64,000 nucleotides of DNA from Anaerolineae bacterium UTCFX1. GTDB taxonomy: Bacteria; Chloroflexota; Anaerolineae; Anaerolineales; Villigracilaceae. The number at the start of each line of letters is the position of its first letter. The first letter of the stretch is position 1. Position numbers and translations under genes: made by a program. This document shows, in pieces, positions 16,545 through 44,288 of the stretch. The stretch spans positions 351,176-415,175 of the forward strand of contig MWTB01000002.1 of the NCBI GenBank assembly GCA_002050275.1, given 5' to 3'. The notes under the pieces were generated by a model. It worked only from the letters and a program-made list of their open reading frames with translations. It was not told the origin of the DNA and ran no database searches.

Positions 16545-17486
16545 CTAGCGTTTGTAGAAATTGGCGGGGAAGTCGGGTGGTTGCAACCATCCTAACAATC
16601 CGTGTTTGGAGGGTCGGCTAGGCGGAGGCTTTTCGAACCAAACGAACAGCAAACTGAAACTTAAGCCGATCATTCCAGCCCATTGCCAGCCGGCGAGTTC
16701 TTCCCCGAGTAAGAGATGGCTGAAGACGATGGCGACGATTAACTCTGCCAGCCCGAGGATCGCGGTCTGCATTCCGCCAATGTGTTTTACGCCGAAGAAG
16801 AGCGTTAGACGCGAGAAGAACGTTACCGCCGTAAGCGCCAGCGCCGGCGCCCATGGCGCGGATTTACTGGGCAGGCTTCCGTCGAAAATGAAGTAGGCAG
16901 GCACGACGATCAGGCTCATGGCGAGGAGCGTGTAGACGGTCACTGTGGGAGCCGGTACATCGTAGAGCGCGCGTTGATTAATAGGTAGATGAAGCGCGTA
17001 TAAAGCAGCGGCGATCAGCATAAATGCCACGCCGGACGGATCGAGAGCGATATCGGCGTTGCGAGTTAGAAGGTAAACTGAAACGATTGCGACAGCGATC
17101 CGTAGAAAGGTTAGGCGCGAAGGAGGTTGGCGATCTAATTGCAGCCAAAATGCGACGAAGAACGGGTAGAGCGAATAGAGCAACTGAGCCATGCTGGCGT
17201 TTAATTTGCTTAAGCCGATGTAATAGAAAATAGACCCGATGCCGTTAATCGCGCCGGCCAACATGGTAACATATAATGCGGCGGGATAAATATAGAGCGC
17301 GCGACGATTGAATAGGGCGAGAATCGCCGCAAGTAAGAGCGCCGCTAAACTGGTGCGGAAAGCGACGACGGCGAACGGCGAAAATTTGCCTGCGCCCATG
17401 GCGGCTTTGCCGAATACCGGCGCCAACCCGAGGAATAGCGCGGAGAGCAACGCTGCATTGATGCCTTTCTGTCTGGCTTTGTGCAT
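16545..17486 (-). CDS. EamA/DMT-superfamily transporter
   Basis: The 313-residue integral membrane protein has about ten hydrophobic helices arranged as two EamA repeats (about residues 8-145 and 150-290), starting with ALLSALFLGLAPVFGKAAM and ending with LGEELAGWQWAGMIGLSFSLLFVW. Members of the drug/metabolite transporter superfamily export amino acids, nucleosides or other metabolites, and the substrate is not predictable here. It follows the threonine synthase-receiver gene by 71 bp on the same strand. Amino acid export is therefore possible but unproven. Confidence 0.85.
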   Translation of the reverse strand: MHKARQKGINAALLSALFLGLAPVFGKAAMGAGKFSPFAVVAFRTSLAALLLAAILALFNRRALYIYPAALYVTMLAGAINGIGSIFYYIGLSKLNASMAQLLYSLYPFFVAFWLQLDRQPPSRLTFLRIAVAIVSVYLLTRNADIALDPSGVAFMLIAAALYALHLPINQRALYDVPAPTVTVYTLLAMSLIVVPAYFIFDGSLPSKSAPWAPALALTAVTFFSRLTLFFGVKHIGGMQTAILGLAELIVAIVFSHLLLGEELAGWQWAGMIGLSFSLLFVWFEKPPPSRPSKHGLLGWLQPPDFPANFYKR

Positions 17487-17557: not shown

Positions 17558-19234
17558 TCACTGAATGAGCGAACGGACTTCGTCGAGAAAATCGTCGTTC
17601 AAGAAATCGCCTTTTTGCATTAATGCCTGAATCTGCCCTTGCAGACGGCTTTTTTCGCTGACGGTTAGTTCTTTTGCGGTAGCGACGATAATGGGAATAT
17701 TTGTAGTTTCTGGCTTGCTTCGCAGCGCGTCCAGCACGGCGAAGCCATCCACTTCGGGCATCATTAAGTCGAGAATGACAATATCGGGGTGTTCGCGGCT
17801 GACGAGTTCGATGGCTTCGTTTCCGTTCGACGCTTCGGTGATCTCAAAATCGCCCTGCGATTGGAGAATGCGCCGAATCAAACGGCGCGCGTCGGGGCTG
17901 TCGTCTACAATGGCGATGCGCGAAAAGCGGTTCGGAGTGACGTTGTTAAGCGCGGCAAGCAAGCCTTCTTCCGGCGTGTTTGATTGCGCCATAACGCTGG
18001 GGTAGTCTACGTCGCGCGTCCAATTTTCATCGAAGAGGAACTGTTCCGCTGGGAGCGTGTGCCCGGTACAATTAACAACGACCGTGTCTGTCGATTTGAT
18101 CGCGCCGGTGCGGACGAGTTTAAACAGCCCCGCGAAAGCGGCGGCGGCGGCGGGTTCGGCTGAGATGCCTTCCAGTTTGGCAAGTACGTGCATGGCGCGA
18201 AACGCATCGTCATCTGATACGCTTTCGAAGACGCCATTGGTTTCGATTACCTGCTTTCGTAACAACGTATAAGTTCTGCCCGGGTCGCCGGTGGCGAGCG
18301 TTTCGATGCGCGTGTTCGGAGAAAGCACGGGTTCGGCTTTTTCCATGCCTTTCTTCCAGCCGTCCACCATAGGCGCGCAACCTTCGGCTTGGATAGGCGC
18401 AAGAGCGGGGATGCGTTCGGTTATGCCCAATTGTTTTAGTTCGCGAAATCCTTTATACACGCCGACGGGTCCCATCCCTCCGCTGACGGCTTGAATGTAC
18501 CAATCTGGCGTTCGCCACTTGGGCGCGTTTGCGGCGGATCGCGGAGGAGCGCCTTCCATTATAGTGAGTTGCTCGGCGATCTCAAAGGCGATGGTTTTCA
18601 TCGCTTCGACGGCGGTAACGGTGCGCGCACCCATATCCTGATATAGTCCGCGTTGACGAGCGAATTCTGCGGCGACCTGTTTTGCTTGATCGTACGAACC
18701 GGTGATCTTTACAACTTGGCTGCCGTAGAGCGCGATCTCGCGCATTTTTACGCCGGGGACTAGGCTGGTGACAAATGCCCATAATTTAATTCCCGCTCGC
18801 GCGGCGTAGGCAGAGAGAGCGATAGCGACATTGCCCGTAGAAGCGGCGACCATCTCGGTGACGCCGCCTTCTTTGAGCGCGGCAATAGTAACTGCGGCTT
18901 GCCGGTCTTTAAAGGAAGAGGTTGGTCCTTGTCTTTCATCCTTAATATAGAGATTGGGAAGACCAAGCATATTTCCGAGGTTGGCGGCTTTGATGAGCGG
19001 CGTACCGCCCTCGCCCAAGTAGAGCGTCGGATTCGGCTCGTAAATGGGGAGTAACTCGCGATAACGCCATAAATTGAAAGGACGATTTTGTAATTCAGCG
19101 GGGAAACTTTGCGCTACGGCTTGAAGGTCGTACTCCGCTTCGCGCCACTGGCTGCCGCAGTTTGGGCATTGCATCGAACGCGGCATGAACGGCGCGGCGC
19201 GTCCGCAATCGAGACAACGTATTGTGAATAACAT
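17558..19234 (-). CDS. thrC: Threonine synthase fused to a C-terminal receiver domain
   Basis: Residues 1 to about 415 form a PLP-dependent threonine synthase, which converts O-phosphohomoserine to threonine: an N-terminal zinc-ribbon-like Cys set (Cys7, Cys10, Cys23, Cys26), GEGGTPLI, Lys109 in GPTSSFKDRQAAV as the PLP lysine, and ASTGNVAIALSAYAA. After a short linker, residues 436-558 are a complete CheY-like receiver: acidic pair Asp444/Asp445, phospho-acceptor Asp489 in VILDLMMPEVDG, switch Thr519 in IVATAKE, and Lys541 in LMQKGD. The stop and start codons leave no doubt that this is one frame. Threonine synthase is normally a stand-alone enzyme of about 350-500 residues. The gene follows the hybrid kinase by 35 bp, which makes that kinase the obvious candidate phosphodonor. 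Regulation of the enzyme by phosphorylation is inference. Confidence 0.9.
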   Translation of the reverse strand: MLFTIRCLDCGRAAPFMPRSMQCPNCGSQWREAEYDLQAVAQSFPAELQNRPFNLWRYRELLPIYEPNPTLYLGEGGTPLIKAANLGNMLGLPNLYIKDERQGPTSSFKDRQAAVTIAALKEGGVTEMVAASTGNVAIALSAYAARAGIKLWAFVTSLVPGVKMREIALYGSQVVKITGSYDQAKQVAAEFARQRGLYQDMGARTVTAVEAMKTIAFEIAEQLTIMEGAPPRSAANAPKWRTPDWYIQAVSGGMGPVGVYKGFRELKQLGITERIPALAPIQAEGCAPMVDGWKKGMEKAEPVLSPNTRIETLATGDPGRTYTLLRKQVIETNGVFESVSDDDAFRAMHVLAKLEGISAEPAAAAAFAGLFKLVRTGAIKSTDTVVVNCTGHTLPAEQFLFDENWTRDVDYPSVMAQSNTPEEGLLAALNNVTPNRFSRIAIVDDSPDARRLIRRILQSQGDFEITEASNGNEAIELVSREHPDIVILDLMMPEVDGFAVLDALRSKPETTNIPIIVATAKELTVSEKSRLQGQIQALMQKGDFLNDDFLDEVRSLIQ

Positions 19235-19269: not shown

Positions 19270-22200
19270 TTAGCCTAGCGCGTCGAGCGCCTGCTCAATG
19301 CTGGAGATTAGCTCGTCTTCTTTGAGCGAGCCTTTTAATAGGAGACGTTTGCCGAACTCTTGTATCTGCTTCGATTGTTCCGGCGTCAAATCTGCGCCGC
19401 TGATCACTAGCGTGGGCAGGTTGCGCAGTTCGGGATCTTCGCGCATTTTCTCAAGCAGCGTGAACCCGTCCCATTCAGGCATAAAAAGATCGAGGATAAC
19501 GGCGTGAGGGCGCCGCGTTTGGAGCGCGTCCCAGCCTTGTCGCCCGTCTTCGGCGGTTTCGACCTCGTATGCTCCATCTGCGCTGAGAATTTTTTCAATT
19601 AGGCGGCGGTCTTCTGGGCTGTCGTCAACGACGAGAATATTTCGAATGGTTCCCTTTTTGTTTAGGCGTTTAACAGCCTGAACGAGATCTTCTTCCAGAA
19701 TGGGTTTGGTGAGATAATCCGCCGCGCCGAGATTAAAGCCTTTGTCGGCTTGCTCAAGGATCGAGCAGATGATGACTGGAATGTCGCGCGTGGCTGGGTC
19801 TGATTTAAGCTGCGATAATAACGTCCAACCGTCAACGTTGGGCATCATCAAGTCGAGGGTAATTGCGTACGGTTGGATAGCGGCGATGCGTTCCTTCGCG
19901 TCTTTCGCGTCTGTGATCGAGATGATGTAGTAGCCCTGCGGAGACAAATAGCGTTCGTACAGGCTGACGACTTTAGGATCGTCGTCTATCGAAAGGATGA
20001 CTTTGCGATCTTGCGGGATGTCGTCTAACGGTTGTTGGTAGGGCGGCAAGGTGAACCAAAATGTGGAGCCTTCGCCCGGTTCGCTGGTTACGCCAATTTG
20101 CCCGCCGTGCAGCTGAACGAGATTGGCGCAAATGGAGAGCCCTAATCCCGAACCGCCGCTCTTTCGCGTCGCCGAACCGTCTACTTGTGAGAATGCTTTA
20201 AAGAGTTTTTCCTGATCTTCAGGAGCGATGCCGGGTCCCGTGTCTGTTACGCGGACCAAAACTTCGAGCTTTCCATCTGACTTCTTCTGATTCACGGCTT
20301 CAACCTTGATCGCTCCCTCGTCGGTAAATTTCGCGGCATTCGAAAGCAGGTTGATGAGAATCTGGCGGACGCGCATTGTATCGCCGCGAATCGTAGAGAC
20401 ACCGTCTTGTATGTTTGAGACCAGTTGAATCGGTTTCTCTTTGACCAATCCTTTCGCCGTAGAGAGCACGCTTTGAATCATGTCGGCGAGATTGACTTCT
20501 TCAAAGTTCAATTCCATCTTGCCGGCTTCGATACGGGCGAGGTCAAGCACATCGTTAATCAGCCCAAGCAGATGCTGCCCCGAGTTGTAAATGGCGGTCA
20601 GGTCTTGCTGTTGCATCTCGGTTGTGGGACCGTCAATGCCTTTTAGAATGACGCGCGAGAATCCGATGATCGAGTTGAGCGGCGTGCGCAGTTCATGACT
20701 CATGTTGGCTAGGAATTGACTTTTAAGTTTATCCACTTCACGCAGGTCTTTGATGAGTTGTTGCGAGAGTTCGTACGAGCGGGCGTTGTCAATTGCCACC
20801 GCGACCTGATCGCTCAACAGTTGGAGGGTCGAAATATCTTCTTCGGCGAAGGCGTTGGGCTGATCGGAATGTAGATCGAGCGCGGCGATAATGCGCGAGC
20901 CGATGCGTAATGGAATGACAACCTCAGAGCGCGTATCAGGGAGCAGTGGGTGCGATTTGTACAAAGGCGCATCCGCCGCTTCTGCAATTCGTTGCGCTTC
21001 TCCGCTTTCCAGCGCCAGCCCCACGACGCTGTTTGCGTTGATGTCTATTGTGCGTTTGGAGGCGATCATTTGTTCGCCGGCGGCGCCGGTGGCGCCGCGT
21101 AGGGCGGCTTTAAAGCCGGTTTCTTCAACGCTATAAAGCGCGACGAAATATAAACCAAAGCCTTCTTTTACGCGTTGTACAGTTTGCGTAAAGATCTGAT
21201 TGAGATCGAGCGTGGAAGTGATCAACCTTCCGACTTCGGCGGATATGGCGAGATATTGATTGCGGCGTTGAAGGGCTTCTTCGGCGTTTTTACGATCGGT
21301 GATATCGCGCGCTACCCAGAAGACTTCGTTTTCATTCAATCGTGAAAGACTGGCGAGAAACCAGTAGTTTTGCCCATCCACCGGCAGTTGATACTCGATT
21401 TGCACCATGTCGTTCGATTCGAGGGCTTGTGAAATGGCTGCGCGGAACGGCTTAGCCGTCTCGGACGGCAGGATGTCGGTCATTTTCTTGCCGAGCATCT
21501 CCTGCGCCGGCAGAAAGAGACGCGAGGGATTGGTCGGCGCGATGCGGACGTAGCGCGTATCCCGATCCGTGACCATGACCACGTCGTGCATAGCGGCGAA
21601 TAGCGCCCGCAGATCGGTTTCCGATTTTGCCAACGCTTCTCTGGCAAGCAGACGTTCAATAGCGGCTGATGCATGTCCTGCGAGAATGGTCAGCGTGTTT
21701 TGGTGTTGCGGGGTGATGCGCGTTTCCGAATCGTACGACTGTATCGCAATTACGCCGCGTGTCGCCGCTTCGCTGCGTAAGGGGACCCCAAGCCAGTTTG
21801 TCCGGTCGGTCTCTCGGTCGGTCACTTCGCCAGAAGCGAGCAGTTCCGAGTAGATCTCAGGCGTGGTTCGCAGGGCTTTGCCTGTGCGAATTACATAGCC
21901 TGCCAAGCCCCTGCCTAATTTTTGCGAGGGCGCAGGCTGATTGCGTTCGTTCATATAATAAGGGAATGACAACTGATCGTTTTGAGGGTCGTATAAAGCG
22001 ATATAGAAATTCTGAGCGGGAACGAGCGCGCCGATCGCTTTATGGATGGATTCCGAAAGTTCTCTAATGCTGGATGCGGTGAATGCCGCATCTGAAATTT
22101 CTGTGCTGGCGGCTTGTATCAACTCGTTTGTTTTTCGCTCTGTAACGTCCTGCGCGGAGCCTACAAGTTTATACAGACGACCCTCATCGTCCATTTCGGC

Positions 22201-23406
22201 TTTATAGATCGCGCTGATCCAAGTCTTTTCCTCGCCGCGAGAGCGGAAGCGGATTTCTGAAGCGACTTCATCGCCTGCTCGAGTCATCTTGAGCGCTTTT
22301 TCGTACGCTTCTGCGGCGAGCCTAATGTCTGCAGAGTCGATGAAATTTTTGAGCACTTCGCGCGCTGAGTACTGAGACCGACCCTCTTGCTCAAGAGACG
22401 TGCCGAGAACGTTGAATAATTCTTCCGTAATTGTGAATGTTTGCGTGGCGACGTCCACCTCGAAATAGCCGATCCTGGCGATACGCAGCGCCCCGGAGAG
22501 AGTTTCCTGACTATCGGTGACTTCCTGGAATAGCCGCGCGTTCTCAACGGCGATAGCGGTTTGGCTGGCGAAAGAGGTGATTAGCCTGAGGTCGTGCTCG
22601 TTATATTTATGATAAGTCTCGAAGTCTTGAATGGCGATCACACCGACGACTTTATCGCCGGTGATCAATGGCACGCCCATGTACGAACGCGCATGCTCAC
22701 CGGCGGTAGTTTCGCCGCGGCTGTGCGCCCATGCCTCGCTTCCCTCGCCAATTAAGACGCTTTCGCGAGAACGTATAATGTACGACGTGATGCCCATGCC
22801 CATCGGCAAGCGACCGAGCGTGCGGTCTGTCTCCGATTCGGAGACATTGAGCAGGAATACAATTTCATCTTTTGGCCGGTCGTAAAAAGCGATGTAGAAA
22901 TTTCGCGTATCGAATAAACGCGAGATGCCTTCGTAGGTGACTTCTGCGATTTGCTGAAGATTTAATGTGGCGGCTAGCGCCTGCCCGACCTCGTTGAGAA
23001 CCGTTACCTCTTTGGCGCGCGCTTCGGTTTCCTGAAAGAGTCGCGCGTTCTCTAAGGCGAGCGAGAGTTGATCGGCTACCTGACGAACGAGCAATTCGTC
23101 GTCCGGTATCCAGACGACATTTGGCGTTTCGTCTAACGCTTGCAGAGTCGCCCAGTTGTTGGGGCTTACTTGGAAATCAACGGAAATTGAGTTCTCGGTT
23201 TTAGGAGCGCGTTGAAACAGTGCGGTCGGAATCGTCGGCGCAGGAGCGCTTGCCGATCGTGTTGGGGCTGGCGGCGGAGACGCAGCCTCGGCTCCTTCCG
23301 CCGGCTTAGAGCGCGACACCCGCTTTGCCTTGGAGGAAGATTCTTCCGGTGTAACATCTTTGAATAATTGATCAAGCCGTTTGTCGGCTGACTTCTTCTT
23401 TGGCAT
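19270..23406 (-). CDS. Hybrid histidine kinase, GAF/PAS sensor with two receiver domains
   Basis: A protein of about 1378 residues without membrane helices. In order: a disordered Ser/Ala/Pro/Lys-rich N-terminus (1-95), the last helix of a GAF-like unit (105-130), GAF (135-295), PAS with trailing PAC (305-425), GAF (430-590), PAS (600-710), GAF with the array signature LPDTRSEVVIPL (720-880), HisKA with His906 in ANMSHELRTPLNSIIGFS, HATPase_c (1010-1125; N-box NLLSNAAKF, G1 DTGPGI, G2 GGSGLGLSI), receiver 1 (1137-1250, Asp1187) and receiver 2 (1257-1378, Asp1308). Numbers count from the upstream TTG at 23412. The ATG at 23406, about 10 nt after AGGAG, is preferred. It is the only histidine kinase in the array and overlaps the ParA gene by 35 bp. 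Confidence 0.93.
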   Translation of the reverse strand: MPKKKSADKRLDQLFKDVTPEESSSKAKRVSRSKPAEGAEAASPPPAPTRSASAPAPTIPTALFQRAPKTENSISVDFQVSPNNWATLQALDETPNVVWIPDDELLVRQVADQLSLALENARLFQETEARAKEVTVLNEVGQALAATLNLQQIAEVTYEGISRLFDTRNFYIAFYDRPKDEIVFLLNVSESETDRTLGRLPMGMGITSYIIRSRESVLIGEGSEAWAHSRGETTAGEHARSYMGVPLITGDKVVGVIAIQDFETYHKYNEHDLRLITSFASQTAIAVENARLFQEVTDSQETLSGALRIARIGYFEVDVATQTFTITEELFNVLGTSLEQEGRSQYSAREVLKNFIDSADIRLAAEAYEKALKMTRAGDEVASEIRFRSRGEEKTWISAIYKAEMDDEGRLYKLVGSAQDVTERKTNELIQAASTEISDAAFTASSIRELSESIHKAIGALVPAQNFYIALYDPQNDQLSFPYYMNERNQPAPSQKLGRGLAGYVIRTGKALRTTPEIYSELLASGEVTDRETDRTNWLGVPLRSEAATRGVIAIQSYDSETRITPQHQNTLTILAGHASAAIERLLAREALAKSETDLRALFAAMHDVVMVTDRDTRYVRIAPTNPSRLFLPAQEMLGKKMTDILPSETAKPFRAAISQALESNDMVQIEYQLPVDGQNYWFLASLSRLNENEVFWVARDITDRKNAEEALQRRNQYLAISAEVGRLITSTLDLNQIFTQTVQRVKEGFGLYFVALYSVEETGFKAALRGATGAAGEQMIASKRTIDINANSVVGLALESGEAQRIAEAADAPLYKSHPLLPDTRSEVVIPLRIGSRIIAALDLHSDQPNAFAEEDISTLQLLSDQVAVAIDNARSYELSQQLIKDLREVDKLKSQFLANMSHELRTPLNSIIGFSRVILKGIDGPTTEMQQQDLTAIYNSGQHLLGLINDVLDLARIEAGKMELNFEEVNLADMIQSVLSTAKGLVKEKPIQLVSNIQDGVSTIRGDTMRVRQILINLLSNAAKFTDEGAIKVEAVNQKKSDGKLEVLVRVTDTGPGIAPEDQEKLFKAFSQVDGSATRKSGGSGLGLSICANLVQLHGGQIGVTSEPGEGSTFWFTLPPYQQPLDDIPQDRKVILSIDDDPKVVSLYERYLSPQGYYIISITDAKDAKERIAAIQPYAITLDLMMPNVDGWTLLSQLKSDPATRDIPVIICSILEQADKGFNLGAADYLTKPILEEDLVQAVKRLNKKGTIRNILVVDDSPEDRRLIEKILSADGAYEVETAEDGRQGWDALQTRRPHAVILDLFMPEWDGFTLLEKMREDPELRNLPTLVISGADLTPEQSKQIQEFGKRLLLKGSLKEDELISSIEQALDALG

Positions 23407-24157
23407 ACTCAATTAACTCCTGGGCGAGGACGCGATATTGCTGCGAGCCGCGGCTTGTGGGGCGATATTGCGTGATCGGCATCCCCGCGATGGGGCTTTC
23501 TCTAAGTTTTGTGTCTATTTCAATGACGCTGGTAAACACGCCTTGTCCGAACGTGGCTTGTAATTGTTCGAAGATGTTGCGATGCGTGCGATTCCTGCGG
23601 TCTAGCAAAGTCACTAGAATGCGATAGGCGAGATTCGGGTTGCTTTCTTGTCGAACGCGGCGGATTGACCCCATCATATTGCGCAGCGCGTATGCTGAGA
23701 AATATTCCGCTTGCGTGGGGATGACGAGCAAATCGGCGGTGGAGAGCGCGTTCAGGGTGATCGCGCCCAGCGCGGGGGGGCAATCGAGCAGGATGTAATC
23801 GTATTCCAATTTGCCGGCTTGAAGCGCTTGCCGCAACGTCTGTAAATAACGGCTTCGCATGGGGAGGTACTGCTCGGCGCTTTCGATGCGCGAGCTGGAC
23901 GAGATGAGATCGAGATTGGCGACGTCCGTTTTGCGAATCGCGGATTGGATCGGCGCGTTGTCTATGAGGATGTTCGCCGAAGTGACCTTTGATTCGCCAG
24001 CTTCCAGCCCAAGCGCAAGACTCAGATTCGCTTGCGGGTCGAGGTCAATCAACAAGACGCGATGCTTGAATTCCGCCAGCGCGGCTCCGAGCGAAAGCGT
24101 GGTGGTTGTTTTGGCGACGCCGCCCTTTTCGTTGGAAATGGCAATTGTGTAAGGCAT
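23372..24157 (-). CDS. ParA/Soj-family ATPase, orphan
   Basis: The 261-residue P-loop ATPase has the deviant Walker A NEKGGVAKTTTT (Lys11 and Lys16), switch I/Walker A' LLIDLDPQANLS, and Walker B ILLDCPPALG. ParA-family proteins form dynamic ATP-dependent dimers that position DNA or protein complexes. No ParB gene is adjacent, so this is not an ordinary par operon. The ATG at 24157, 4 nt after a GAGGG site, is chosen over the longer frame to 24220. It lies between a membrane GAF receptor gene (14 bp upstream) and the hybrid kinase gene, which it overlaps. By analogy with ParC-type proteins of chemotaxis clusters it could position the signalling complex; this is inference. Confidence 0.9.
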   Translation of the reverse strand: MPYTIAISNEKGGVAKTTTTLSLGAALAEFKHRVLLIDLDPQANLSLALGLEAGESKVTSANILIDNAPIQSAIRKTDVANLDLISSSSRIESAEQYLPMRSRYLQTLRQALQAGKLEYDYILLDCPPALGAITLNALSTADLLVIPTQAEYFSAYALRNMMGSIRRVRQESNPNLAYRILVTLLDRRNRTHRNIFEQLQATFGQGVFTSVIEIDTKLRESPIAGMPITQYRPTSRGSQQYRVLAQELIEYAKEEVSRQTA

Positions 24158-24170
24158 AATCCCTCGACTG

Positions 24171-25925
24171 TTATGTATCCTTCTTGCCGCCGTTGGCGGG
24201 AGGCGAGACGACTTGAACACGGCTGGCGCCGAGCGCGGACTTTAACTCTGCCAGCGCGGTTTGAATCATCGCCTGAGGATCGTTTACGCTTCGTATCTTT
24301 CCGGTGATCTCCGCCACAACTCGTTCACGCTCGGCGCGGCGGTTGGTCTCTTCGATCAATCGCGCGCTTTCGAGCGCGACCGCCAGCCTTTCAGAGACAG
24401 CCTGAATCATATTGATCTCATCTGCGCTCCATTGGTAACCCTTGTTGGGCGCTTTGACGTTCAGCACGCCAATGGTTTCGCCGCGCAGTTTGAGCGGCGC
24501 GCTTACGGCAGGTTCGACCCGTGGGTTATCGTCGTCAAGAATAAGCTCGCCGCGTTTTATGGCTTCGTTGATCGCATCTGTATTGAACGGCGCTTCGAGC
24601 GCTTCCCCGCCTTGTGTGGATTGATGATAGCCAATGCTCGCCGCTTTGCTTCGGAAAGTTCTCCATTCCTGCTGTAAATACTGGCTGTGAAGAGCCTGCG
24701 CTTCGGCGAGCGCTTGCTGAGCGTTCGTCAACAGCCGCGCATTTTCGATAGCGATAGCGATCTGGGCGCTGAGGACGCTGAGCGTATTGAGATTGTTTTC
24801 ATTGAATTCGCCCGCTTGTACGCTTTGAACGTCTAGCACGCCGATGGTTTCACCTTTGATGTTAAGCGGAAGAGCCATTTCGGAGCGGGTGGCGGGCAGA
24901 TCGGGATTGTCGAAGAAGGCGGCGTCCGCGCCTACGTCGAGAGCGATGCGGGCGATTCCCGTATGCGCGACGTTTCCTACGATGCCTTCGCCGAGTTTGA
25001 GACGATGCCCGCGCGCTAACATGTGCTGGCCGCCTTCGCTGTTGGCGGCTTGCAAGACAACATTTTGACGGGCGGCATCGAGCAGAAAGATGCCGATATG
25101 ATAGAAATTAAATTTCTCGCTTACGATGTGAACAATAAGCGGCAGAAGAATGTCGAGCCGCTGCTCGCTGGAAACGATACGCGAGATTTCGCTGATAGTC
25201 TGCAAGTCTTTGGCGCGGCGTTCGCTTTCGCTGCGTGCGGTAGAGAAATCTGCGGTGCGCTCCTGAATGCGAGACTCGAGAATTGCTTGCAGGTCTGCCA
25301 GTTCTTCATTTGTCGCCTGCAGTTTTTTGCGATTGGCTATGGATGTTTCCAGCGCTTGTTGCGTATTGCGAGATGTAAGATACATCCCGATGCCCGCCAG
25401 AGAAAGCACAAGCGAATATGCGATCCAGTCGCCAACTGGATTGCCGGCAGACGGTTGAAAGATGCTAGGTATCCATCCACGCGAACGCGCTACGGAGAGC
25501 GCGAAGGTGATGATTGCGACGAGCGTTGTTACGCGAAGGAATGCGCGTGTATTGACGAACATATTGGCGAAAACCAGGATAAGACCGATCGCCAGAAGCG
25601 ATACAGCGCTTCCTGAACCGCTTGTCGCGTAGGCGGAGAAGATTGACAGGCTGACGCTGAAGAGGAACAAATAAGAGGCGGCGGCAACGCGTCTACGCCG
25701 CAGTGTTAACAATGCGATGATGTTGAGCGCTGTTGTTGGCAGAAAGAACGCAAAGAATAACGGTGTTTCAGACGAGCTGGCGAAGAAAAAGAGAGGCGCT
25801 GTCGCTATTATTGTAAAGATAATGACGATTAGCAAAATAGCGTTAAGCAATCTAGCTGTGCGCGTTTTCTCCTGATCGTCTTCAAATACCGGCGCGGCAA
25901 ATAATTTGACGAAAAATGATCGCAT
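24171..25925 (-). CDS. Membrane-anchored two-GAF receptor without kinase (array member 9)
   Basis: The 584-residue protein starts with the array's N-terminal motif (APVFEDDQEKTRTARLLN), then five or six membrane helices (about 28-185), a coiled coil (190-235), GAF1 (240-385) with YHIGIFLLD, AANSEGG, RIALDVGADAAFFDN and LPATRSEMALPL, a linker containing QYLQQEWRTF, a second GAF-like unit (about 440-520), and a C-terminal segment RVVAEITGKI...LGASRVQV. No HisKA, HATPase, GGDEF, cyclase or methyl-accepting domain is present. It precedes ParA by 14 bp. The likely role is a sensory subunit whose output depends on a partner. Confidence 0.88.
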   Translation of the reverse strand: MRSFFVKLFAAPVFEDDQEKTRTARLLNAILLIVIIFTIIATAPLFFFASSSETPLFFAFFLPTTALNIIALLTLRRRRVAAASYLFLFSVSLSIFSAYATSGSGSAVSLLAIGLILVFANMFVNTRAFLRVTTLVAIITFALSVARSRGWIPSIFQPSAGNPVGDWIAYSLVLSLAGIGMYLTSRNTQQALETSIANRKKLQATNEELADLQAILESRIQERTADFSTARSESERRAKDLQTISEISRIVSSEQRLDILLPLIVHIVSEKFNFYHIGIFLLDAARQNVVLQAANSEGGQHMLARGHRLKLGEGIVGNVAHTGIARIALDVGADAAFFDNPDLPATRSEMALPLNIKGETIGVLDVQSVQAGEFNENNLNTLSVLSAQIAIAIENARLLTNAQQALAEAQALHSQYLQQEWRTFRSKAASIGYHQSTQGGEALEAPFNTDAINEAIKRGELILDDDNPRVEPAVSAPLKLRGETIGVLNVKAPNKGYQWSADEINMIQAVSERLAVALESARLIEETNRRAERERVVAEITGKIRSVNDPQAMIQTALAELKSALGASRVQVVSPPANGGKKDT

Positions 25926-25927
25926 CG

Positions 25928-27655
25928 CTACTTCCTTTCTCTGCGAGCGGAATCGGGGTTTTCATCCGCCGTCTGAAGTTGAATCAGCACTTCCGAGCCG
26001 CCCAGCGCTTGGCTTAGTTCTTCGGCGGCGACGCGCAAGATCGAATCGAATTGCGTGGACGAGCCGATTTTACCGGTGATCTCTGAAGTTAAACGTTCGA
26101 CTGCGGCGCGTCTTTGCGTTGTTTCGAGCAAGGTTGCCGCTTCCAACGCGAGTGAAAGGCGTTCGGCGGCAGCCTTTGCAATGTCCGCTTCGTCCGAAGT
26201 CCAGGCGTGGTCGGCGTTTAGATTAAGGCGCACAACTCCGACGACGCTTCCTCCGATACGGATCGGGATTGCAAGATTCGATCCGCTGTCGGGCGGCTCA
26301 GCCGATTGCACGCTATCCGTTAGCGCGGAGAAAAGCGCAACGTCTACGGGTTGGTTGGATTGTTTGATCGCGTCTCCTTCGGCGACGTAATTCCAAGCGC
26401 GCTCTCGCGGTTTTAGTATCTGCCATGCATCGCGCAGATATGTTCCAGCCGTCCTTTGCGCTTCTGAGATTAATTCTTGAGTCGATTCGTAGTAGCGGGC
26501 GTTTTGCACCGCCGTGGCGACCTGGTCTGCCAGCGTGAGCAAGACTTCCACATCTTCTTCGTTGAACGCGTTGGCGTCCAGGCTTTGGATGTCGAGTACG
26601 CCGATGACTAGTCCAGCGGATATGAGCGGCAGGGCGATTTCCGAATGCGTGTCGGGAAGGTCGGGGTTATTGAAGAAGACTGCGTCTTTTCCCACGTCGA
26701 GCGCGATGCGAGCTTCGGCGGCGACGGCGACGTAGCCGACGATGCCGGTTTGTCCGACGCGTAATTTGTGGTTGCGCGCCAGCATTTGCTTACCGCCGTC
26801 GCTGTTGGCGGCGCGGAGTTCCGCGTATTCGCGATTGTCGTCTATCAAGAAAATGCCCGTATGATAGAACCCGAACTTTTCGCTGATGACGTTTACAAGC
26901 TGAGAGATGAGATCTTCCAAATTTTGATTAGCGGCGGCGGCTTTAGCCACTTGAGCGATCGCTTCGAATTGTCGCGCGCGGCGCTGAAAGCGGAGATTCG
27001 CTTGCTCCAATTCCTCGGTCCGGGCGACAACGCGCTTTTCCAAGGTCTGATTGAGGCTGTGCAACGATTCGTTAGACGCGCTTAAGTTTTCTTCGCTTTT
27101 CTTCGCTCGAGTGAGTGCGTCTCCGAGAATGGTCGTGCTGAAATAGATCAGAAAAGTAATAGCGATGTATACGAAGCCGATATCTCTGGCGTAGTTGATT
27201 GGCGTGGAGAGGACTGGGCTGATAACGGCAGCGGTTTCGCTCCAGGCAAGCAGAAAGAACATCGGAACGCTTAGTAATGTGAGGAGACTGCCGGCGCCGC
27301 GCCCGATCACAATGCTCGCCAGCAAGCCTGTGATGATGTAGGCTGGGATCAGCGAATCTCTCACGCCGTCGCTGACGAACGATTCGAGACCGACAACGAT
27401 CCATAGCAGAATAACGCTAGTCCAGGCGCTGGCGGCGAGTTTTCCGCGTTTCAGCATAAAGAAAGCGATAAACAAGACGATGATCAGCGCCGATAGAATC
27501 GGCACGGTGTATGGATCGCCGGGGTTGACAATGTACAGAATCGTCGCTAGCGTGAGGAGCGCAATGGACACCCAGATAAAATTGCTGAGAAACTTTGCGC
27601 GAGAGTTGTCCTCTTCGGTCTCAAAGATGGGCGGGCTGAAGAATTTACGGATCAT
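25928..27655 (-). CDS. Membrane-anchored two-GAF receptor without kinase (array member 8)
   Basis: 575 residues. The N-terminal motif SPPIFETEEDNSRAKFLSN is followed by about six membrane helices (27-185), a coiled coil (190-240) with RVVARTEELEQANL, GAF1 (245-385) with GFYHTGIFLID, AANSDGG, RIALDVGKDAVFFNN and LPDTHSEIALPL, a shortened linker, a second GAF-like unit (about 430-510) and the C-terminal segment ERLTSEITGKI...LGGSEVLIQL. No enzymatic or DNA-binding output is visible. Its start overlaps the stop of the upstream array gene by 4 bp, and it lies 2 bp from the next one. Confidence 0.88.
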   Translation of the reverse strand: MIRKFFSPPIFETEEDNSRAKFLSNFIWVSIALLTLATILYIVNPGDPYTVPILSALIIVLFIAFFMLKRGKLAASAWTSVILLWIVVGLESFVSDGVRDSLIPAYIITGLLASIVIGRGAGSLLTLLSVPMFFLLAWSETAAVISPVLSTPINYARDIGFVYIAITFLIYFSTTILGDALTRAKKSEENLSASNESLHSLNQTLEKRVVARTEELEQANLRFQRRARQFEAIAQVAKAAAANQNLEDLISQLVNVISEKFGFYHTGIFLIDDNREYAELRAANSDGGKQMLARNHKLRVGQTGIVGYVAVAAEARIALDVGKDAVFFNNPDLPDTHSEIALPLISAGLVIGVLDIQSLDANAFNEEDVEVLLTLADQVATAVQNARYYESTQELISEAQRTAGTYLRDAWQILKPRERAWNYVAEGDAIKQSNQPVDVALFSALTDSVQSAEPPDSGSNLAIPIRIGGSVVGVVRLNLNADHAWTSDEADIAKAAAERLSLALEAATLLETTQRRAAVERLTSEITGKIGSSTQFDSILRVAAEELSQALGGSEVLIQLQTADENPDSARRERK

Positions 27656-30171
27656 TCCGTTTCCTGACCTTCCTTGAATTGGATCGTTACTTTGGCGCCG
27701 GGTAGAGAACGGCTTAGTTCGAGCGCCGCAGTCTTGATTAGCTCTTCAGCGGTGTTCTTAGCGCTGATCTTGGATGCGATCTCGCCAATCACTCGTTCTT
27801 TTGCCGCGCGCTTCTGACTTTCCTCGAGGAAGCGCGCATTCTCAAGCGCGAATGCGGCGCGCTCGACGATCGCGTTGACGATGTCCATTTCGTCTTGGTC
27901 CCAGCGGCGATTGCCTACTGCGCGAACATCCACCGAACCGATAACCTCATCGCGCAGCTTGAGCGGAATTGAGATGGAAGACTCGCGCGGCCCGAGAGCC
28001 GTTTCGCGTCTCGCTTCTGTATCGTCTGCTTTTCCCTTTGCGTACAAGATTGTTGAGCGCGCGCCTGAATGGCGAATGCCGAGGAGTTTTCTTTTCGCGA
28101 ACTCGCTCCATCCTGCTCGAGTGAGTTGGCGCGAGAGGGTCTCCGATTCGGCGAGCGCTTTTCTAGTCTCTTCATATTGACTTGCATTCTGAATGGCGAG
28201 GCTCATTTGATCGGCGAGGATTTCAAGCGTGTTAATGTCTTGTTCGCCGAAAGCGCTCGGCGCTTTGCTTTGCACGTCGAGCGCGCCGATCACGCCGTTG
28301 CTGTCGCGCAAGGGTAGGGCGATCTCGGAACGCGTTTCGGGCAGGAAGGGGTTGTCGAAGAAGACGGCATCCCCGCCGACATCGAGAGCGACGCGGGCTT
28401 TTCCCGTCCCGGTTGCGTAACCAACGATACCGGTCTCCCCGACCTTGAGCCTGTGACGGTTTGCCAGCATTTTCTTTCCGCCTTCACTATTTGACGCGCT
28501 TAACACCGCGTATTCTTTGCGAGGATCGAGTAAGAAGATTCCAACATGATAGAAATTAAACTGCTTGCTGATGGCGTCGGCTACTTGCGGGAGCAACGCG
28601 CCCAGGTCTCGCGTGGAGCCGACCGCGTGCGCCACTCTGGCGATCGTTTCTAACTGAGCGGCGCGCTGCTGGCTTTGTTCGTTAGCGAGCGTCAACTCGG
28701 AGGTGCGTTCCGCGACACGCTGTTCGAGGTTGCCGAGCGTTTCGCGCAAGCGATTTGTCATTGTGTTGAAGGCGTTGGCAAGCGCGCCAATTTCGTCTTT
28801 TGAAGTCGCCGTCGCTTGCGCGGCTAAGTCTCCGGCGACGATTTGGTTGGCGGTTTCGGTCAGGCGAACGATCGGCGTGGCGATGCGTTCGCTGATGCGG
28901 AGGCTGATCGCGATCGCGGCTAATAGCAATGCCGTCAAAATGATCGTTGCGAGAAGCGTCGCCGATTGAATTTGAGCGGTTGTCTCGGCTTTCGAAGCGA
29001 TAAGCGCGCTTTGCATCTCAGCGACGGGAACGACCACGCCGATGCTGTATCCCGTTGTTTTAATCGGGGCGAACGCGAAATAGGTCTCGACTCCGTCAAC
29101 TGAGATTATGATTAAGCCATGTCCTCCAGCTGCCATGCGGTTGACGACGCGTCTTACATCCAGCGATCCTTTGCCAAAAACGGTGAGTTTATAATATTCA
29201 TCGGGGTTGATGGCTTGCGGATCGATTCCGAAGAGATCGAAGCCAGCCTGAGGCATGGAAATGATGCGCCCAGCGTCGTCGAGCATGAAAGCGTATCCGC
29301 TTTGTCCAACCTTGATCTGCTCGATTTGATCGGTGATGGTTGTGAGTTTCACGTCTGCCGCGACGATGCCTTGAAATAGGTCGCTATTGTATACAGGCGC
29401 GGCGATAGTTACGACCAAGCCTGCGCCGGTAGCGTCTATATAAGGAATTGCCCAGCGCGGCATTCTTGACGGGTTGTAAGACGGCGACGTAATTCTGAAA
29501 TACGGGCGTTCTGAAGGGTTGAAGCCGGGCGGCACAACGGCGGCGAGATTAATGTTGGGGTAATAGCGCGTGATCCCGCGCGTATCAATAGCGTATACGG
29601 CGAGGAGCTGCGGGTTGGCTTCGAGCGTGAATGGCGCGGAGAAATCCAGATAAGCCGAGGCGTTTAAGCCGTCAATCGTTTTAGCGTCAATCTCTATGTT
29701 CGGCGGAACATACGCCGATGAAGCATCTTGTGTCGAGTTTCCGTATTGTCCATCTTTCAATTGGGTGAGAGCGTTCTCTGCGTTCCAGTAACTGCCGACT
29801 CCGAGTTTTTCCTGCTCGGCGATTAACATGCTCCATTGCGCGGCAAGCTCTACAACGTTGTCTTCAACTTTTTCGAAGACGTGATCGGCTTTATCTGCTT
29901 CTAAGTTGATCGAAGCGGTCAGCTGTTCTTCCGTGAGATGGAGCGTGTTGGCTTCGAACCGATCTGAGAGCGAATTGATGATCTGAGTGGCGCTGCTGAA
30001 CGCGTAGAAAGCTAGAAATCCGACAGCGATGCCGCCGGTGAATAGAATACCGATAGCGACTCGCGCGCGCAGGCTTCTGGCATTTAAGCGTCGCGAGATG
30101 CGTAAGGCGGCGATTATAAGCGCGACGAGAACAAGAACGGCGGCGATCGCTTCAATTTGAAACCGACTCAT
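27652..30171 (-). CDS. Cache-HAMP-two-GAF receptor without kinase (array member 7)
   Basis: The largest membrane member, 839 residues. Two helices near the N-terminus (about 5-24 and 38-60) precede a roughly 330-residue extracytoplasmic region (62-395) with the pattern of a double Cache ligand-binding domain (ITRYYP, ERPYFR, GIVAADVKLTTI, GYAFMLDDAGRIIS). A third helix (about 400-422), HAMP (425-478), coiled coil with AERTSELTLANEQ, GAF1 (510-655; YHVGIFLLD, LPETRSEIALPL), GAF2 (about 690-785) and the C-terminal segment RVIGEIASKI...LPGAKVTIQF follow. A chemoreceptor-like input is joined to GAF domains, but no kinase or MCP signalling tip follows. It is coupled by 4-bp overlaps on both sides. 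Confidence 0.88.
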   Translation of the reverse strand: MSRFQIEAIAAVLVLVALIIAALRISRRLNARSLRARVAIGILFTGGIAVGFLAFYAFSSATQIINSLSDRFEANTLHLTEEQLTASINLEADKADHVFEKVEDNVVELAAQWSMLIAEQEKLGVGSYWNAENALTQLKDGQYGNSTQDASSAYVPPNIEIDAKTIDGLNASAYLDFSAPFTLEANPQLLAVYAIDTRGITRYYPNINLAAVVPPGFNPSERPYFRITSPSYNPSRMPRWAIPYIDATGAGLVVTIAAPVYNSDLFQGIVAADVKLTTITDQIEQIKVGQSGYAFMLDDAGRIISMPQAGFDLFGIDPQAINPDEYYKLTVFGKGSLDVRRVVNRMAAGGHGLIIISVDGVETYFAFAPIKTTGYSIGVVVPVAEMQSALIASKAETTAQIQSATLLATIILTALLLAAIAISLRISERIATPIVRLTETANQIVAGDLAAQATATSKDEIGALANAFNTMTNRLRETLGNLEQRVAERTSELTLANEQSQQRAAQLETIARVAHAVGSTRDLGALLPQVADAISKQFNFYHVGIFLLDPRKEYAVLSASNSEGGKKMLANRHRLKVGETGIVGYATGTGKARVALDVGGDAVFFDNPFLPETRSEIALPLRDSNGVIGALDVQSKAPSAFGEQDINTLEILADQMSLAIQNASQYEETRKALAESETLSRQLTRAGWSEFAKRKLLGIRHSGARSTILYAKGKADDTEARRETALGPRESSISIPLKLRDEVIGSVDVRAVGNRRWDQDEMDIVNAIVERAAFALENARFLEESQKRAAKERVIGEIASKISAKNTAEELIKTAALELSRSLPGAKVTIQFKEGQETE

Positions 30172-31874
30172 GTCGCATCCTTGTCGTTGAATCGAATCAG
30201 CACTTCAGAGCCGCCAAGCACGCGCTCTAATTCGGCGGCGGTCGCCTGCAGGATGTTTTCGATATTGGTCGAGCCGCTTACGCGGGTCGTCGCTTCGGCG
30301 ATCATACGCTCTTTTGCGGCGCGCCGCCGCGCGTCTTGGAACAAGCGCGCATTTTCCAGCGCGAAGGCGGCGCGTTCGGCTACCGATTCGATCAAGCCGA
30401 TCTCGTCCGCTTGCCAGGTTTTAGCGAGATCGCGCGCTTCCACTTGCAGCAAGCCGATGGTTTCTCCGCGCAATTTTACCGGCACTGTGATCTGTCCTTG
30501 CCGTTGATCGGTCGCGCCGCCGGCCGGCGCGGCGACTGACGTTCCCTTGTCCGGCTCCAACAATTCGATGCGACCGTCGTTATAACGAAAGCCGGGATAG
30601 TCCATTTGCTCGCTTATTCGTTGCCATTGCGTGCGGATAAATTCGTTATAGACTGTTTCCGCTTGGAAAGTCGCGGCGCGCGCTTCAGAGAGTAAGCGCA
30701 TATTTTCAAGCGCGACGGTCAATTGGTTAGCAAGCACGCCCAATGTGTGAAAATCGTCTTCAGAGAATGCATTCGGCTCGAGGCTTTGCGCGTCTAAAAC
30801 GCCGATAAGCTTGTCGTCTGAGAGCAGGGGCAGGGCGATCTCGGAGCGCGTTTTAGGCAGATCGGGGTTGTTGAAGAAAACCGCGTCGGCGCCAACGTCG
30901 AGAGCGATACGCGGTCTTTTAGTTTGCGCAACGAAACCGACGACGCCCGTGCCGAATGCGAGACGATGCCCGCGTTCGAGCATTTTCTGCCCGCCGGCGC
31001 TGTTTGCCGCCTGTAAGATCGCGTTTGTTTTACTTTGATCAACTAAAAAGACGCCCACATGATAGAAACCCAATCGTTCGCTAATGAGCTGCGATGCGAC
31101 GGAAAGAATCTCGTGCGAGTCTTTTAAGCGCGAGAGCGCTTGCGAAACATCGGCGATCGTTTCAAGTTGCGCCGCGCGGCGAGCGGTCGCTTCAGTGACG
31201 CGGCTTAATTCTTTTGTGCGTTCGTCTACGCGTTGTTCGAGTTGGGCGGTTAGCGTCTCAAGTTCACGATTTGCGTTCTCAGTCTGTTGCATGCGCATCC
31301 GTTCGATGCGGTCGCGGAATACTGTCACGCCGAATAGAAGTACGGAGAGGGAGAAGATCATCCCGGCGGTGCGGGGGATGCTCAAGTGTGAATCAGTCAG
31401 ATATCGCGGGTCGGCGTAGAAACCGAGGCTTGCCGCGGCGAAGGTGGCTAAAAGAGACAGGAGGATAAATCCGCGTTGCGGCAGGAAGGCGCTGGCGAAA
31501 ATCAGCGAGATCGGCACAGTGCTTGAAATGGCGGCGTCTACGCTGTTCGCAACGCCGAAGTAGATCATGACGTAAGCGACCGCCGTTTCGGCGAACGTGA
31601 AGAAATAAACGCCGACGAGGTAGTAAGGCGAGCGGCTTAATGCGTATGTGAGCAAACTGACAGCGAGGAAACTCACGCCGATTGATAATGGCACCGGCGA
31701 GACAAGAACCGCCAGAATCAATATAACTGTCATGGCAAGCGTCAGCGCGGCGAGCAGTTGCGCGCGCCTTTGTTCGCCGATCTCGTGTACCGAGGGATGC
31801 GGCTGCGTGAGATGCGCCCAGATTCGGGCGAGCAGGTTGGCAGGTTTTGCTTCCATAGGCGTATTCATTTTCAA
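30168..31874 (-). CDS. Membrane-anchored two-GAF receptor without kinase (array member 6)
   Basis: 568 residues with about six membrane helices (about 40-185) after a 35-residue cytoplasmic start that lacks the PPxFE motif of its relatives. A long coiled coil (190-230), GAF1 (235-380; FYHVGVFLVD, AANSAGG, RIALDVGADAVFFNN, LPKTRSEIALPL), a linker with EFIRTQWQRI, GAF2 (about 425-510) and the C-terminal segment RMIAEATTRV...LGGSEVLIRF complete it. No output domain is present. The stop codon overlaps the start of the downstream gene by 4 bp. Confidence 0.87.
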   Translation of the reverse strand: MKMNTPMEAKPANLLARIWAHLTQPHPSVHEIGEQRRAQLLAALTLAMTVILILAVLVSPVPLSIGVSFLAVSLLTYALSRSPYYLVGVYFFTFAETAVAYVMIYFGVANSVDAAISSTVPISLIFASAFLPQRGFILLSLLATFAAASLGFYADPRYLTDSHLSIPRTAGMIFSLSVLLFGVTVFRDRIERMRMQQTENANRELETLTAQLEQRVDERTKELSRVTEATARRAAQLETIADVSQALSRLKDSHEILSVASQLISERLGFYHVGVFLVDQSKTNAILQAANSAGGQKMLERGHRLAFGTGVVGFVAQTKRPRIALDVGADAVFFNNPDLPKTRSEIALPLLSDDKLIGVLDAQSLEPNAFSEDDFHTLGVLANQLTVALENMRLLSEARAATFQAETVYNEFIRTQWQRISEQMDYPGFRYNDGRIELLEPDKGTSVAAPAGGATDQRQGQITVPVKLRGETIGLLQVEARDLAKTWQADEIGLIESVAERAAFALENARLFQDARRRAAKERMIAEATTRVSGSTNIENILQATAAELERVLGGSEVLIRFNDKDAT

Positions 31875-31880
31875 CTCCGG

Positions 31881-33575
31881 CTACGAGCCGTCCTCCCAAC
31901 GTGCGTGATCGCTTGCGGCGTTAGCGCTAGGGTCAACGAGGCGAAATGCGACGGTCGTATCGCGAAAGAACCGTCCAAGTTCCTCAACGGTATCGCGTAA
32001 GATCGAATCCATTTGAAAAGAGGCGCTGAGTTTGGCGGACACTTCCGAAAGAAAGGTTTCGTGTTGCGCGCGTTTTTGCGCGTCGTCAAGCAGGCGCGCG
32101 CCTTCCAGCGCGATGGCGACGCGCTCGGCGGTCGCTTTTGCCATGACGATCTCGTCTTCAGTCCAGCGACGCGACGCATCGGTTGGGTTAAGTTTGAGAT
32201 TCCCGATCGTTTGTCCGCGTAAAACGACAGGAACGGAGAGCGGTCGTTCGGCGGCGGGAAATTGTGTTTTCTCGTAAATCGGCTCGGGCTTAACGCCGTC
32301 GTAGCGATAGCCCTTCCTTTTTCGCGACTCTTCCGATTCGCGCCAAACTTGATTGGTGAGCTGGTTCGAGACGAGCTCGGCTTTTTGCAGCGCGTCTTGC
32401 AGTTGTTCGACGGCGCGCGCGTTTTGAATAGCGATCGCCGCTTGATCGGCGAGAACTTGCAGCGTGGAGAAGTCTTCACGGGCGAAATCTTTCGCTCGTT
32501 CGGATTGGATATCGAGCGCTCCGATCGCGCGTTCTTGAACCTTAAGCGGTAGAACGAGTCGAGAGCGGGAGTTTGGCAGGCTGTCAGGCGAATCTAGGCT
32601 GATTATCTCCGCTTCGGTCTGAATCGCGCGCGCGGTTCCACGGCTGACGACAAAACCGATGAGGTTGTTGGGAGTGACTGCAACGCGGCTTTTATTGCGC
32701 ATTAACTGCAAGCCTTCCTCGCTGCTAGCCGCGCTCAATAGAGCGTTTTGACCATTTTCGTCGAGCAGATATACGCCGACATGCGAATACCCCAACCGGC
32801 TGCCGATGGCGGTTGCAATGAGCGGAAGTATGCGTTCGGTCTCCTGCGTTAATGTAATCGTCCTTGAAATGTTGGCGACTGCGTCAATTCTTTCTGCGCG
32901 TTGCCGCAATTGTTCGTTCGCCGCCTGTAGCGCGCTTTGATTTTCTTCCAGCCTCAAACGAGCGGCGCTCACGCTGCGATTTGATTCCTCAAGTTCTTTT
33001 GTGCTTGCGCGCGATTCGCTGAGGGCGCTGCTCAGACCGTTGGCAAAGACGAAAAGCAAGGCGGCGAAAAGACCGAACAGAACCGATAGGCTTATGGCTT
33101 CGGAGAAGGAAGCGCCTGCGATGGAAGCCGCTTTCGCATACGTTATGCCGAAGCCCGCCAGGATTGTCAATGCGGATACGCTGATCGCTTGCCGCCAGCC
33201 GAGGAGCAACGTGACCGCCGTTATGATCACGAAGTTGGCTGTAAATGCGCTGTCGCTCACGCCTGAGCCTAAATAGGCGGTGATATTTGCCGCTAGCCAA
33301 GTGGCGGCGATGAGTAAATATCCAGCCGCGGCTACGCGTCCGCTCTTTGATGCGCCCCACACGAAAGCGTTCAAAAAGAATAGGATGAGGAGCGCTGTAT
33401 TAAAGGAATTGCCTATGGTTGCGGTGACGAGTCTCAGCCTTGTTAAAATGATGAGAAAGGGGATGACGACCATAACGGCGAGCGTAAACCAATGAATGTA
33501 TAACGCGGAGCGCGTTTTATCTTCGTCGCCTTCAAACGTTGGCGGGGCGAGAAAGCGCCTTAATGAATTCCACAT
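31881..33575 (-). CDS. Membrane-anchored two-GAF receptor without kinase (array member 5)
   Basis: The frame runs back to 34004, but the upstream 143 residues are low-complexity, Ser/Arg-rich and overlap the preceding gene. The ATG at 33575 gives a product of 564 residues that begins MWNSLRRFLAPPTFEGDEDKTRS, matching the N-terminal motif of its paralogues. About six membrane helices, a coiled coil, GAF1 (YSHVGVYLLDENGQNALLSAASSEEG, with a diverged IQTEAEIISLDSPDSLPNSRSR region), a linker with NQVWRESEESRK, GAF2 and the C-terminal segment FLSEVSAKL follow. GAF1 is the most diverged of the set, lacking the usual IALDVGxDAxFFxN block, so its ligand or signal may differ. Confidence 0.86.
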   Translation of the reverse strand: MWNSLRRFLAPPTFEGDEDKTRSALYIHWFTLAVMVVIPFLIILTRLRLVTATIGNSFNTALLILFFLNAFVWGASKSGRVAAAGYLLIAATWLAANITAYLGSGVSDSAFTANFVIITAVTLLLGWRQAISVSALTILAGFGITYAKAASIAGASFSEAISLSVLFGLFAALLFVFANGLSSALSESRASTKELEESNRSVSAARLRLEENQSALQAANEQLRQRAERIDAVANISRTITLTQETERILPLIATAIGSRLGYSHVGVYLLDENGQNALLSAASSEEGLQLMRNKSRVAVTPNNLIGFVVSRGTARAIQTEAEIISLDSPDSLPNSRSRLVLPLKVQERAIGALDIQSERAKDFAREDFSTLQVLADQAAIAIQNARAVEQLQDALQKAELVSNQLTNQVWRESEESRKRKGYRYDGVKPEPIYEKTQFPAAERPLSVPVVLRGQTIGNLKLNPTDASRRWTEDEIVMAKATAERVAIALEGARLLDDAQKRAQHETFLSEVSAKLSASFQMDSILRDTVEELGRFFRDTTVAFRLVDPSANAASDHARWEDGS

Positions 33576-33582
33576 AAACTGC

Positions 33583-35289: not shown

Positions 35290-35291
35290 GG

Positions 35292-39328: not shown

Positions 39329-39331
39329 GAA

Positions 39332-43373: not shown

Positions 43374-43435
43374 TGGCGCTTGGTTTCCGATGGATTCGTC
43401 TCGGCTGGATTGCGCAACGCGACGCGCCTCATCTA

Positions 43436-43879
43436 TTAATTGAACTCCCAAACGGATTCGCCGTTTAAGATTCTGCGGATTTGGTCGGGGAATTTGTCGG
43501 GGTCGAGCGGTTTTCCGAGGAAACCGTCGAAGCCTGATTCGCGCGCTTTGTTCACTTGATCCACGCTGGCTTCGGCGGTGACTGCGATGATCGGCGTGGA
43601 TTTTAATTTCTCGGAAGCGCGAATCTTTTTTAGCGCGCCGTAGCCGTCTTCATATGGCAGGCGAATATCCATGAGGATTAAGTCGAGTCGCGAGAGCGTG
43701 TCCGCATATTCTACAACTTCGTAACCGGACGTTTTCCATTCGCAGTGAACGCCGAGGTAGCCGAGCATTCTTGCAATCAGCACGAAGTTGGCGACGTTGT
43801 CTTCCACAACCAGCACGGTCGCATCTTTAGGTATGGATGGTTTGCGAATGGGCTGAGTGTCTAAAACGTTTTCAGGCAT
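43436..43879 (-). CDS. Stand-alone receiver domain protein (CheY-like)
   Basis: The ATG at 43879 follows a GAGGAG site and overlaps the stop codon of the preceding receiver gene. The product is 147 residues: a short N-terminal extension, then a receiver with LVVEDN, phospho-acceptor Asp in LILMDIRLPYEDG, switch Thr in IIAVTAEA and Lys in FLGKPLDPDKF. There is no output domain. It is the second gene of the array and probably receives phosphate from the hybrid kinase at the array's far end. Confidence 0.9.
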   Translation of the reverse strand: MPENVLDTQPIRKPSIPKDATVLVVEDNVANFVLIARMLGYLGVHCEWKTSGYEVVEYADTLSRLDLILMDIRLPYEDGYGALKKIRASEKLKSTPIIAVTAEASVDQVNKARESGFDGFLGKPLDPDKFPDQIRRILNGESVWEFN

Positions 43880-44264: not shown

Positions 44265-44288
44265 ACTTTGAGAATACCTCAGGCTCAA

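Follow-up and report, generated by a model that had tools for sequence, protein, structure and literature searches.

In the 64,000-nucleotide stretch of Anaerolineae bacterium UTCFX1 DNA analysed here (the window), one gene joins a PALP-family PLP-enzyme domain to a C-terminal receiver domain, and this PALP-REC fusion is real, ancient and conserved beside its own sensor kinase across one phylum. This points to a signalling pathway that has a metabolic enzyme as its direct output. The reading that we favour, with a probability of roughly 0.55, is that PALP-REC works as a response regulator switched by the adjacent kinase, with a fold-type-II PLP enzyme as its output, one that arose from the threonine synthase (ThrC) family and acts on a different substrate; phosphotransfer, coupling between the domains, catalytic activity and the link to a neighbouring EamA transporter are what we infer within it. 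The outputs of two-component systems are mostly transcription factors or signalling enzymes. If the reading is true, a conserved PLP-enzyme output of single origin would mean either direct and fast control of metabolism by a kinase or the production of a metabolite as a signal.

The first-pass annotation had described a single uninterrupted frame holding both enzyme and receiver, giving no strand, and this was borne out: 558 codons on the minus strand encode, by Pfam, a PALP domain (PF00291, E 3.6e-63) and a Response_reg domain at residues 440-524 (PF00072, E 4.2e-21, 75.6 bits against a cut-off of 30.2). The residues that it had named, Lys109, Asp444/445, Asp489, Thr519 and Lys541, are all present, and the hybrid kinase gene that it placed 35 bp upstream of the fusion does end there. 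Landmarks of the PALP domain are Lys109 (codon 18908-18910), STGN at 132-135, SGGxGPxG at 251-258 and Cys286. The receiver has the acid pocket (Asp444/445), phospho-accepting aspartate (Asp489, codon 17768-17770), Thr/Ser (Thr519) and lysine (Lys541) of the response regulator superfamily. The N-terminal four-cysteine element presumably binds metal. An AF2 model of the protein has a mean pLDDT of 83 and a pTM of 0.71; pLDDT falls below 50 at linker residues 400-423, next to a short conserved EGLxAAL helix at 424-430 (modelled as helix at 425-429). With a linker of such low confidence and that pTM, no mode of contact between PALP and REC is visible in the model, which counts against the favoured reading. 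A scan for promoters and terminators near the gene returned no more sites than shuffled sequence did.

Table 1. Features of the PALP-REC gene and its cassette, with positions in the window.
Feature	Position	Strand	Basis
Two solo receiver genes, start of cassette	43436-43912 and 43872-44288	-	Collinear in G682
Ten consecutive GAF-containing receptor-like genes	24171..43451	-	Collinear in closed same-genus genome
ParA-like ATPase	23372..24220	-	Pfam AAA_31/CbiA/ParA; recurs upstream of kinase in type A loci
Hybrid histidine kinase, 1380 aa: GAFs, PAS, HisKA, HATPase_c, two receivers	19270..23412	-	Pfam
PALP-REC fusion protein, 558 aa	17558..19234	-	Frame from ATG at 19234 to stop at 17558; full-length relatives
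N-terminal four-cysteine zinc-ribbon-like element, Cys7/Cys10/Cys23/Cys26	19157..19216	-	Invariant cysteines
PALP catalytic domain, residues 73-391	18062..19018	-	Pfam; conservation; AF2 model nearest threonine synthases
Linker, residues 397-432	17939..18046	-	Mostly low AF2 confidence
Receiver domain, residues 438-558	17561..17923	-	Pfam PF00072; conserved residues
EamA/DMT transporter gene, directly downstream of PALP-REC	16545..17486	-	Pfam

Chance joining or misassembly of the two parts is excluded because the full-length fusion recurs in more than 100 other sequences, closed genomes among them. The genome itself (2.78 Mb, 92% complete) holds a second full-length copy, 49% identical, on another contig, and a closed genome of the same genus carries PALP-REC at 90.5% identity within a collinear cassette. 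The family is present across Chloroflexota: in genome sets that include many metagenome assemblies, at the level of the order strong matches to the fusion were found in 54 of 101 genomes, at that of the class in 100 of 298, and outside the class the phylum sample gave matches only in six genomes of one genus and in one further genome. One of the six is the closed genome of Herpetosiphon aurantiacus DSM 785, where the homologue (L086) lies at about 1,409,303-1,410,898 of the chromosome, and the copy in this cultured, fully sequenced organism makes the idea directly testable. A scan of named genomes returned at least 57 loci, nearly all of them full-length fusions; the matches listed all fall within Chloroflexota, with no fusion from outside the phylum, and the next ones listed cover the enzyme part only or the receiver part only. 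Matches cut by contig ends aside, no receiver-less relative was found among about 800 genomes of the phylum or among the matches listed from the named genomes, nor did any genome turn up with the two parts in separate genes, a separation which, like an assembly artefact, the first-pass annotation had named as grounds for refutation. None of 72,556 plasmid records held a fusion covering 80% of the query. A third set of relatives carries PALP-REC-REC, with two receivers. Very long frames (1157-1784 aa) that appeared to unite kinase and fusion were rejected, the reading having run on upward through GC-rich DNA; the genuine variants are those with two receivers. No published description of such a fusion, whether as threonine synthase plus receiver or as PALP plus Response_reg, was found in the open-access papers searched.

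Conservation was assessed over 105 distinct fusions from overlapping genome sets with near relatives included, whose counts are not independent; within this set Lys109, Ser132-Thr133-Gly134-Asn135, Lys213, Thr214, Gly255-Pro256, Cys286 and Asp445 are invariant (105/105). Where the alignment covers the position, Asp489 is retained in 104/104, Thr or Ser at 519 in 103/103 and Lys541 in 103/103, and the four N-terminal cysteines are likewise present in all 104 fusions that cover them. Against the closed same-genus genome dN/dS is about 0.03 for PALP and about 0.05 for REC, with dS near saturation. Between these two genomes PALP-REC is the most conserved gene of the cassette. Together with one solo receiver and the ParA-like ATPase it is 84-91% identical, against 54-69% for the receptors and 64% for the kinase; judged from these identities, the core of the cassette is kept while its sensory parts change.

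PALP-REC is the last of the 15 genes of the cassette, which spans 44288 to 17558. The receptor-like genes mostly have membrane spans, some with HAMP or Cache domains, and no kinase or MCP signalling domain was found in those scanned. The hybrid kinase is the probable cognate kinase of PALP-REC: in 89 of 104 fusions, namely 58 of 69 at type A and 31 of 35 at type B loci, the same strand carries a kinase gene no more than two genes upstream, the types being assigned according to which of two reference PALP domains is closer. Of the first-pass interpretation this much is supported: enzyme and receiver are truly fused and conserved as such, the phosphorylation site is intact and the fusion is linked to the kinase beside it. 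Some fusions have no adjoining kinase gene (for example L051, L081, L084, L092 and L093), which tells against the favoured reading. The order at type A loci is receptors, ParA, a hybrid kinase with one or two receivers, PALP-REC and then usually EamA, and that at type B loci is receptors, a kinase usually without a receiver, PALP-REC, receivers and sometimes a GNAT or ThrC-like gene. The type B arrangement, in which the kinase mostly lacks a receiver, fits a plain kinase-regulator pair. Among type A fusions, 48 of 66 have an EamA gene no further than three genes downstream; among type B fusions 1 of 35 does.

The enzyme part had been called a full PLP threonine synthase, and of this the PLP domain and its Lys109 stand but the identity does not. 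As in ThrC, the PLP domain is of fold type II and has both the catalytic lysine and the STGN loop. The AF2 model best matches threonine synthase 2c2b (Z 46.4, rmsd 2.2 over 387 residues) and next CapA2 of Alistipes finegoldii (PDB 9k3c; Z 43.0, rmsd 2.2, 367 residues), which we take to be a cysteate synthase; fold matches of a predicted model speak to family rather than substrate. All curated threonine-synthase cut-offs are missed, TIGR00260 with 153.6 against 167.1 and PRK08197 with 265 against 303, and the remaining models score lower still. The paralogue also falls short, at 166.5 (narrowly under the 167.1 of TIGR00260) and 242.5, and the cysteate synthase model TIGR03844 gives PALP-REC 118 bits against a cut-off of 324.9. 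The stretch NSxNPxRxEGQKT, which presumably holds ligands of the substrate phosphate, is present in the solved threonine synthases 1uim, 2zsj and 2d1f and in the ThrC of the same genome, and is gone from all 105 fusions, which have a different conserved stretch instead, mostly ending E[SA]MKT. PALP-REC is related to threonine synthase but probably no longer one itself, and proteins of this kind, resembling threonine synthases as they do, would easily be given that name in what is likely an error.

Were the protein a phosphorylation-controlled threonine synthase after all, as the first-pass annotation had suggested, this would account for threonine synthases being the best matches in both sequence and fold, and in favour of this reading are also the ThrC-like gene above the PRK08197 cut-off two genes downstream at some type B loci and the absence of the canonical short ThrC from 15 of the order's 54 genomes with a fusion (39 have it). 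Against it stand the missed cut-offs and the lost motif, as well as a ThrC in the same genome that reaches 309 bits with TIGR00260 (cut-off 167.1) and adjoins the homoserine kinase gene thrB, away from the fusion. A second ThrC-like type occurs in 48 of the 54, and only one of them, 86% complete, lacks both other types. Control of threonine synthesis is not supported, and we regard the reading as very unlikely. In the genome of the window the second ThrC-like gene is L041:4469-5740 (-), its motif partly altered, and this gene type is found in about 80 of the 101 genomes of the order. ThrC of the E. coli type (Thr_synth_N) was found in none of the 101, with the control search positive in 5 named genomes.

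It is also conceivable, although we think it unlikely, that PALP senses an amino acid by way of its PLP instead of turning over a substrate; a ligand held by the cofactor would alter phosphorylation or dephosphorylation of the receiver and so feed a metabolite level into the phosphorelay. A role as metabolic sensor was the alternative that the first-pass annotation had offered. There is precedent in the MocR/GabR regulators, in which a PLP aminotransferase-like domain serves as a sensor. The cassette consists almost wholly of sensory genes, and the ThrC motif has been lost while the PLP-binding residues, which would be expected equally of a PLP-binding sensor, have been kept. However, the catalytic lysine, STGN, the glycine loop and Cys286 are all invariant, which is stricter than binding requires, and the EamA neighbour suits an enzyme better. 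Less probable still is that the receiver acts as a phosphate sink, or serves assembly by anchoring the enzyme to the receptor-kinase complex, with catalysis left unregulated. Several solo receivers in the same cassettes and the second receiver on some fusions would fit such a role, and the wings of the extended decarboxylases show that receivers can turn structural in PLP enzymes (PMC8503589), but a purely structural domain would be expected to lose its phosphorylation residues in some lineages and none of the 103-105 fusions has done so.

According to the favoured reading, an enzymatic response regulator switched by its neighbouring kinase, the receptor genes and the GAF and PAS domains of the kinase would collect signals and set kinase activity. 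The kinase would then phosphorylate Asp489 of the fused receiver, either directly or through its own two attached receivers, and the receiver, by way of the linker and the conserved EGLxAAL helix, would alter the PLP domain in its activity or its assembly. At type A loci the neighbouring EamA transporter would probably move the product or the substrate. A bolder version, which we consider doubtful, has a dedicated, phosphorylation-switched PLP enzyme making an amino-acid-like messenger that is exported by EamA as the output of a large multi-receptor array in Chloroflexota; were it true, a two-component pathway would end in a small metabolite rather than in transcription or motility.

Response regulators with enzymatic outputs, such as CheB, PleD and others, resemble PALP-REC in that an enzyme is attached to a receiver, with a histidine kinase alongside; to our knowledge the outputs of this kind are mainly signalling enzymes. 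Threonine synthases (TIGR00260, PRK08197; PDB 2c2b, 1uim, 6nmx) share with it the fold-type-II PLP domain, the SFKDR lysine and the STGN loop; PALP-REC differs in its C-terminal receiver, in the SGGxGPxG that replaces a GNAGN-type loop, in Cys286 and in lacking the NSxNPxRxEGQKT stretch. The cysteate synthases, with CapA2, are akin to it as another ThrC-like relative, with the TIGR03844 cut-off missed as above, and we know of no receiver part in that family as described. The closest precedent is found in the extended AAT-fold Orn/Lys/Arg decarboxylases, which are described as acid-inducible and in which an amino-acid PLP enzyme is fused to a receiver-derived domain, the N-terminal receiver-like wing (PMC8503589). 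PALP-REC lies outside that group: those enzymes are of fold type I with the wing at the N-terminus, whereas here, by Pfam, a PALP domain of fold type II comes first, an intact receiver follows at the C-terminus and a kinase gene adjoins. No PALP-family amino-acid enzyme serving as a response-regulator output was found in the open-access papers searched.

The origin of the two domains was addressed with trees. In a quick PALP tree, which has long branches and leaves the exact sister group unsure, 43 representative fusions form one clade (SH-aLRT 100%), and a long branch separates it from three other ThrC-like groups. Among receivers, the one in the fusion falls together with the last receiver of the hybrid kinases encoded upstream (SH-aLRT 91, not starred) and stands apart from the first receiver of those kinases, from REC-histidine kinase proteins and from solo receivers. 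Within the genome its best receiver match after the paralogue is likewise the last receiver of the adjacent kinase (78 against 57 bits). On this comparison of sequences, the fused receiver and the last receiver of the kinase likely share an origin.

Several other genes recur at these loci. In many type A cassettes a ParA-like ATPase, an unusual partner for a two-component system, lies between the receptors and the hybrid kinase, and it may position the signalling complex. Near PALP-REC genes that fall outside the main type A group, a gene for a GNAT acetyltransferase is repeatedly found together with solo receivers (L040:6214-7071 (-), L085, L086, L089). Some type B loci have a separate ThrC-like gene downstream of PALP-REC (L064:1389-2552 (-), similarly in L065 and L067-L071), the L064 copy scoring 569 bits with PRK08197, whose cut-off is 303; it is a possible partner of the fusion. 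In a type A subgroup (L082, L090, L091, L092, L096 and others) a conserved REC-histidine kinase of 415-442 aa lies directly downstream of PALP-REC, which suggests a longer phosphorelay.
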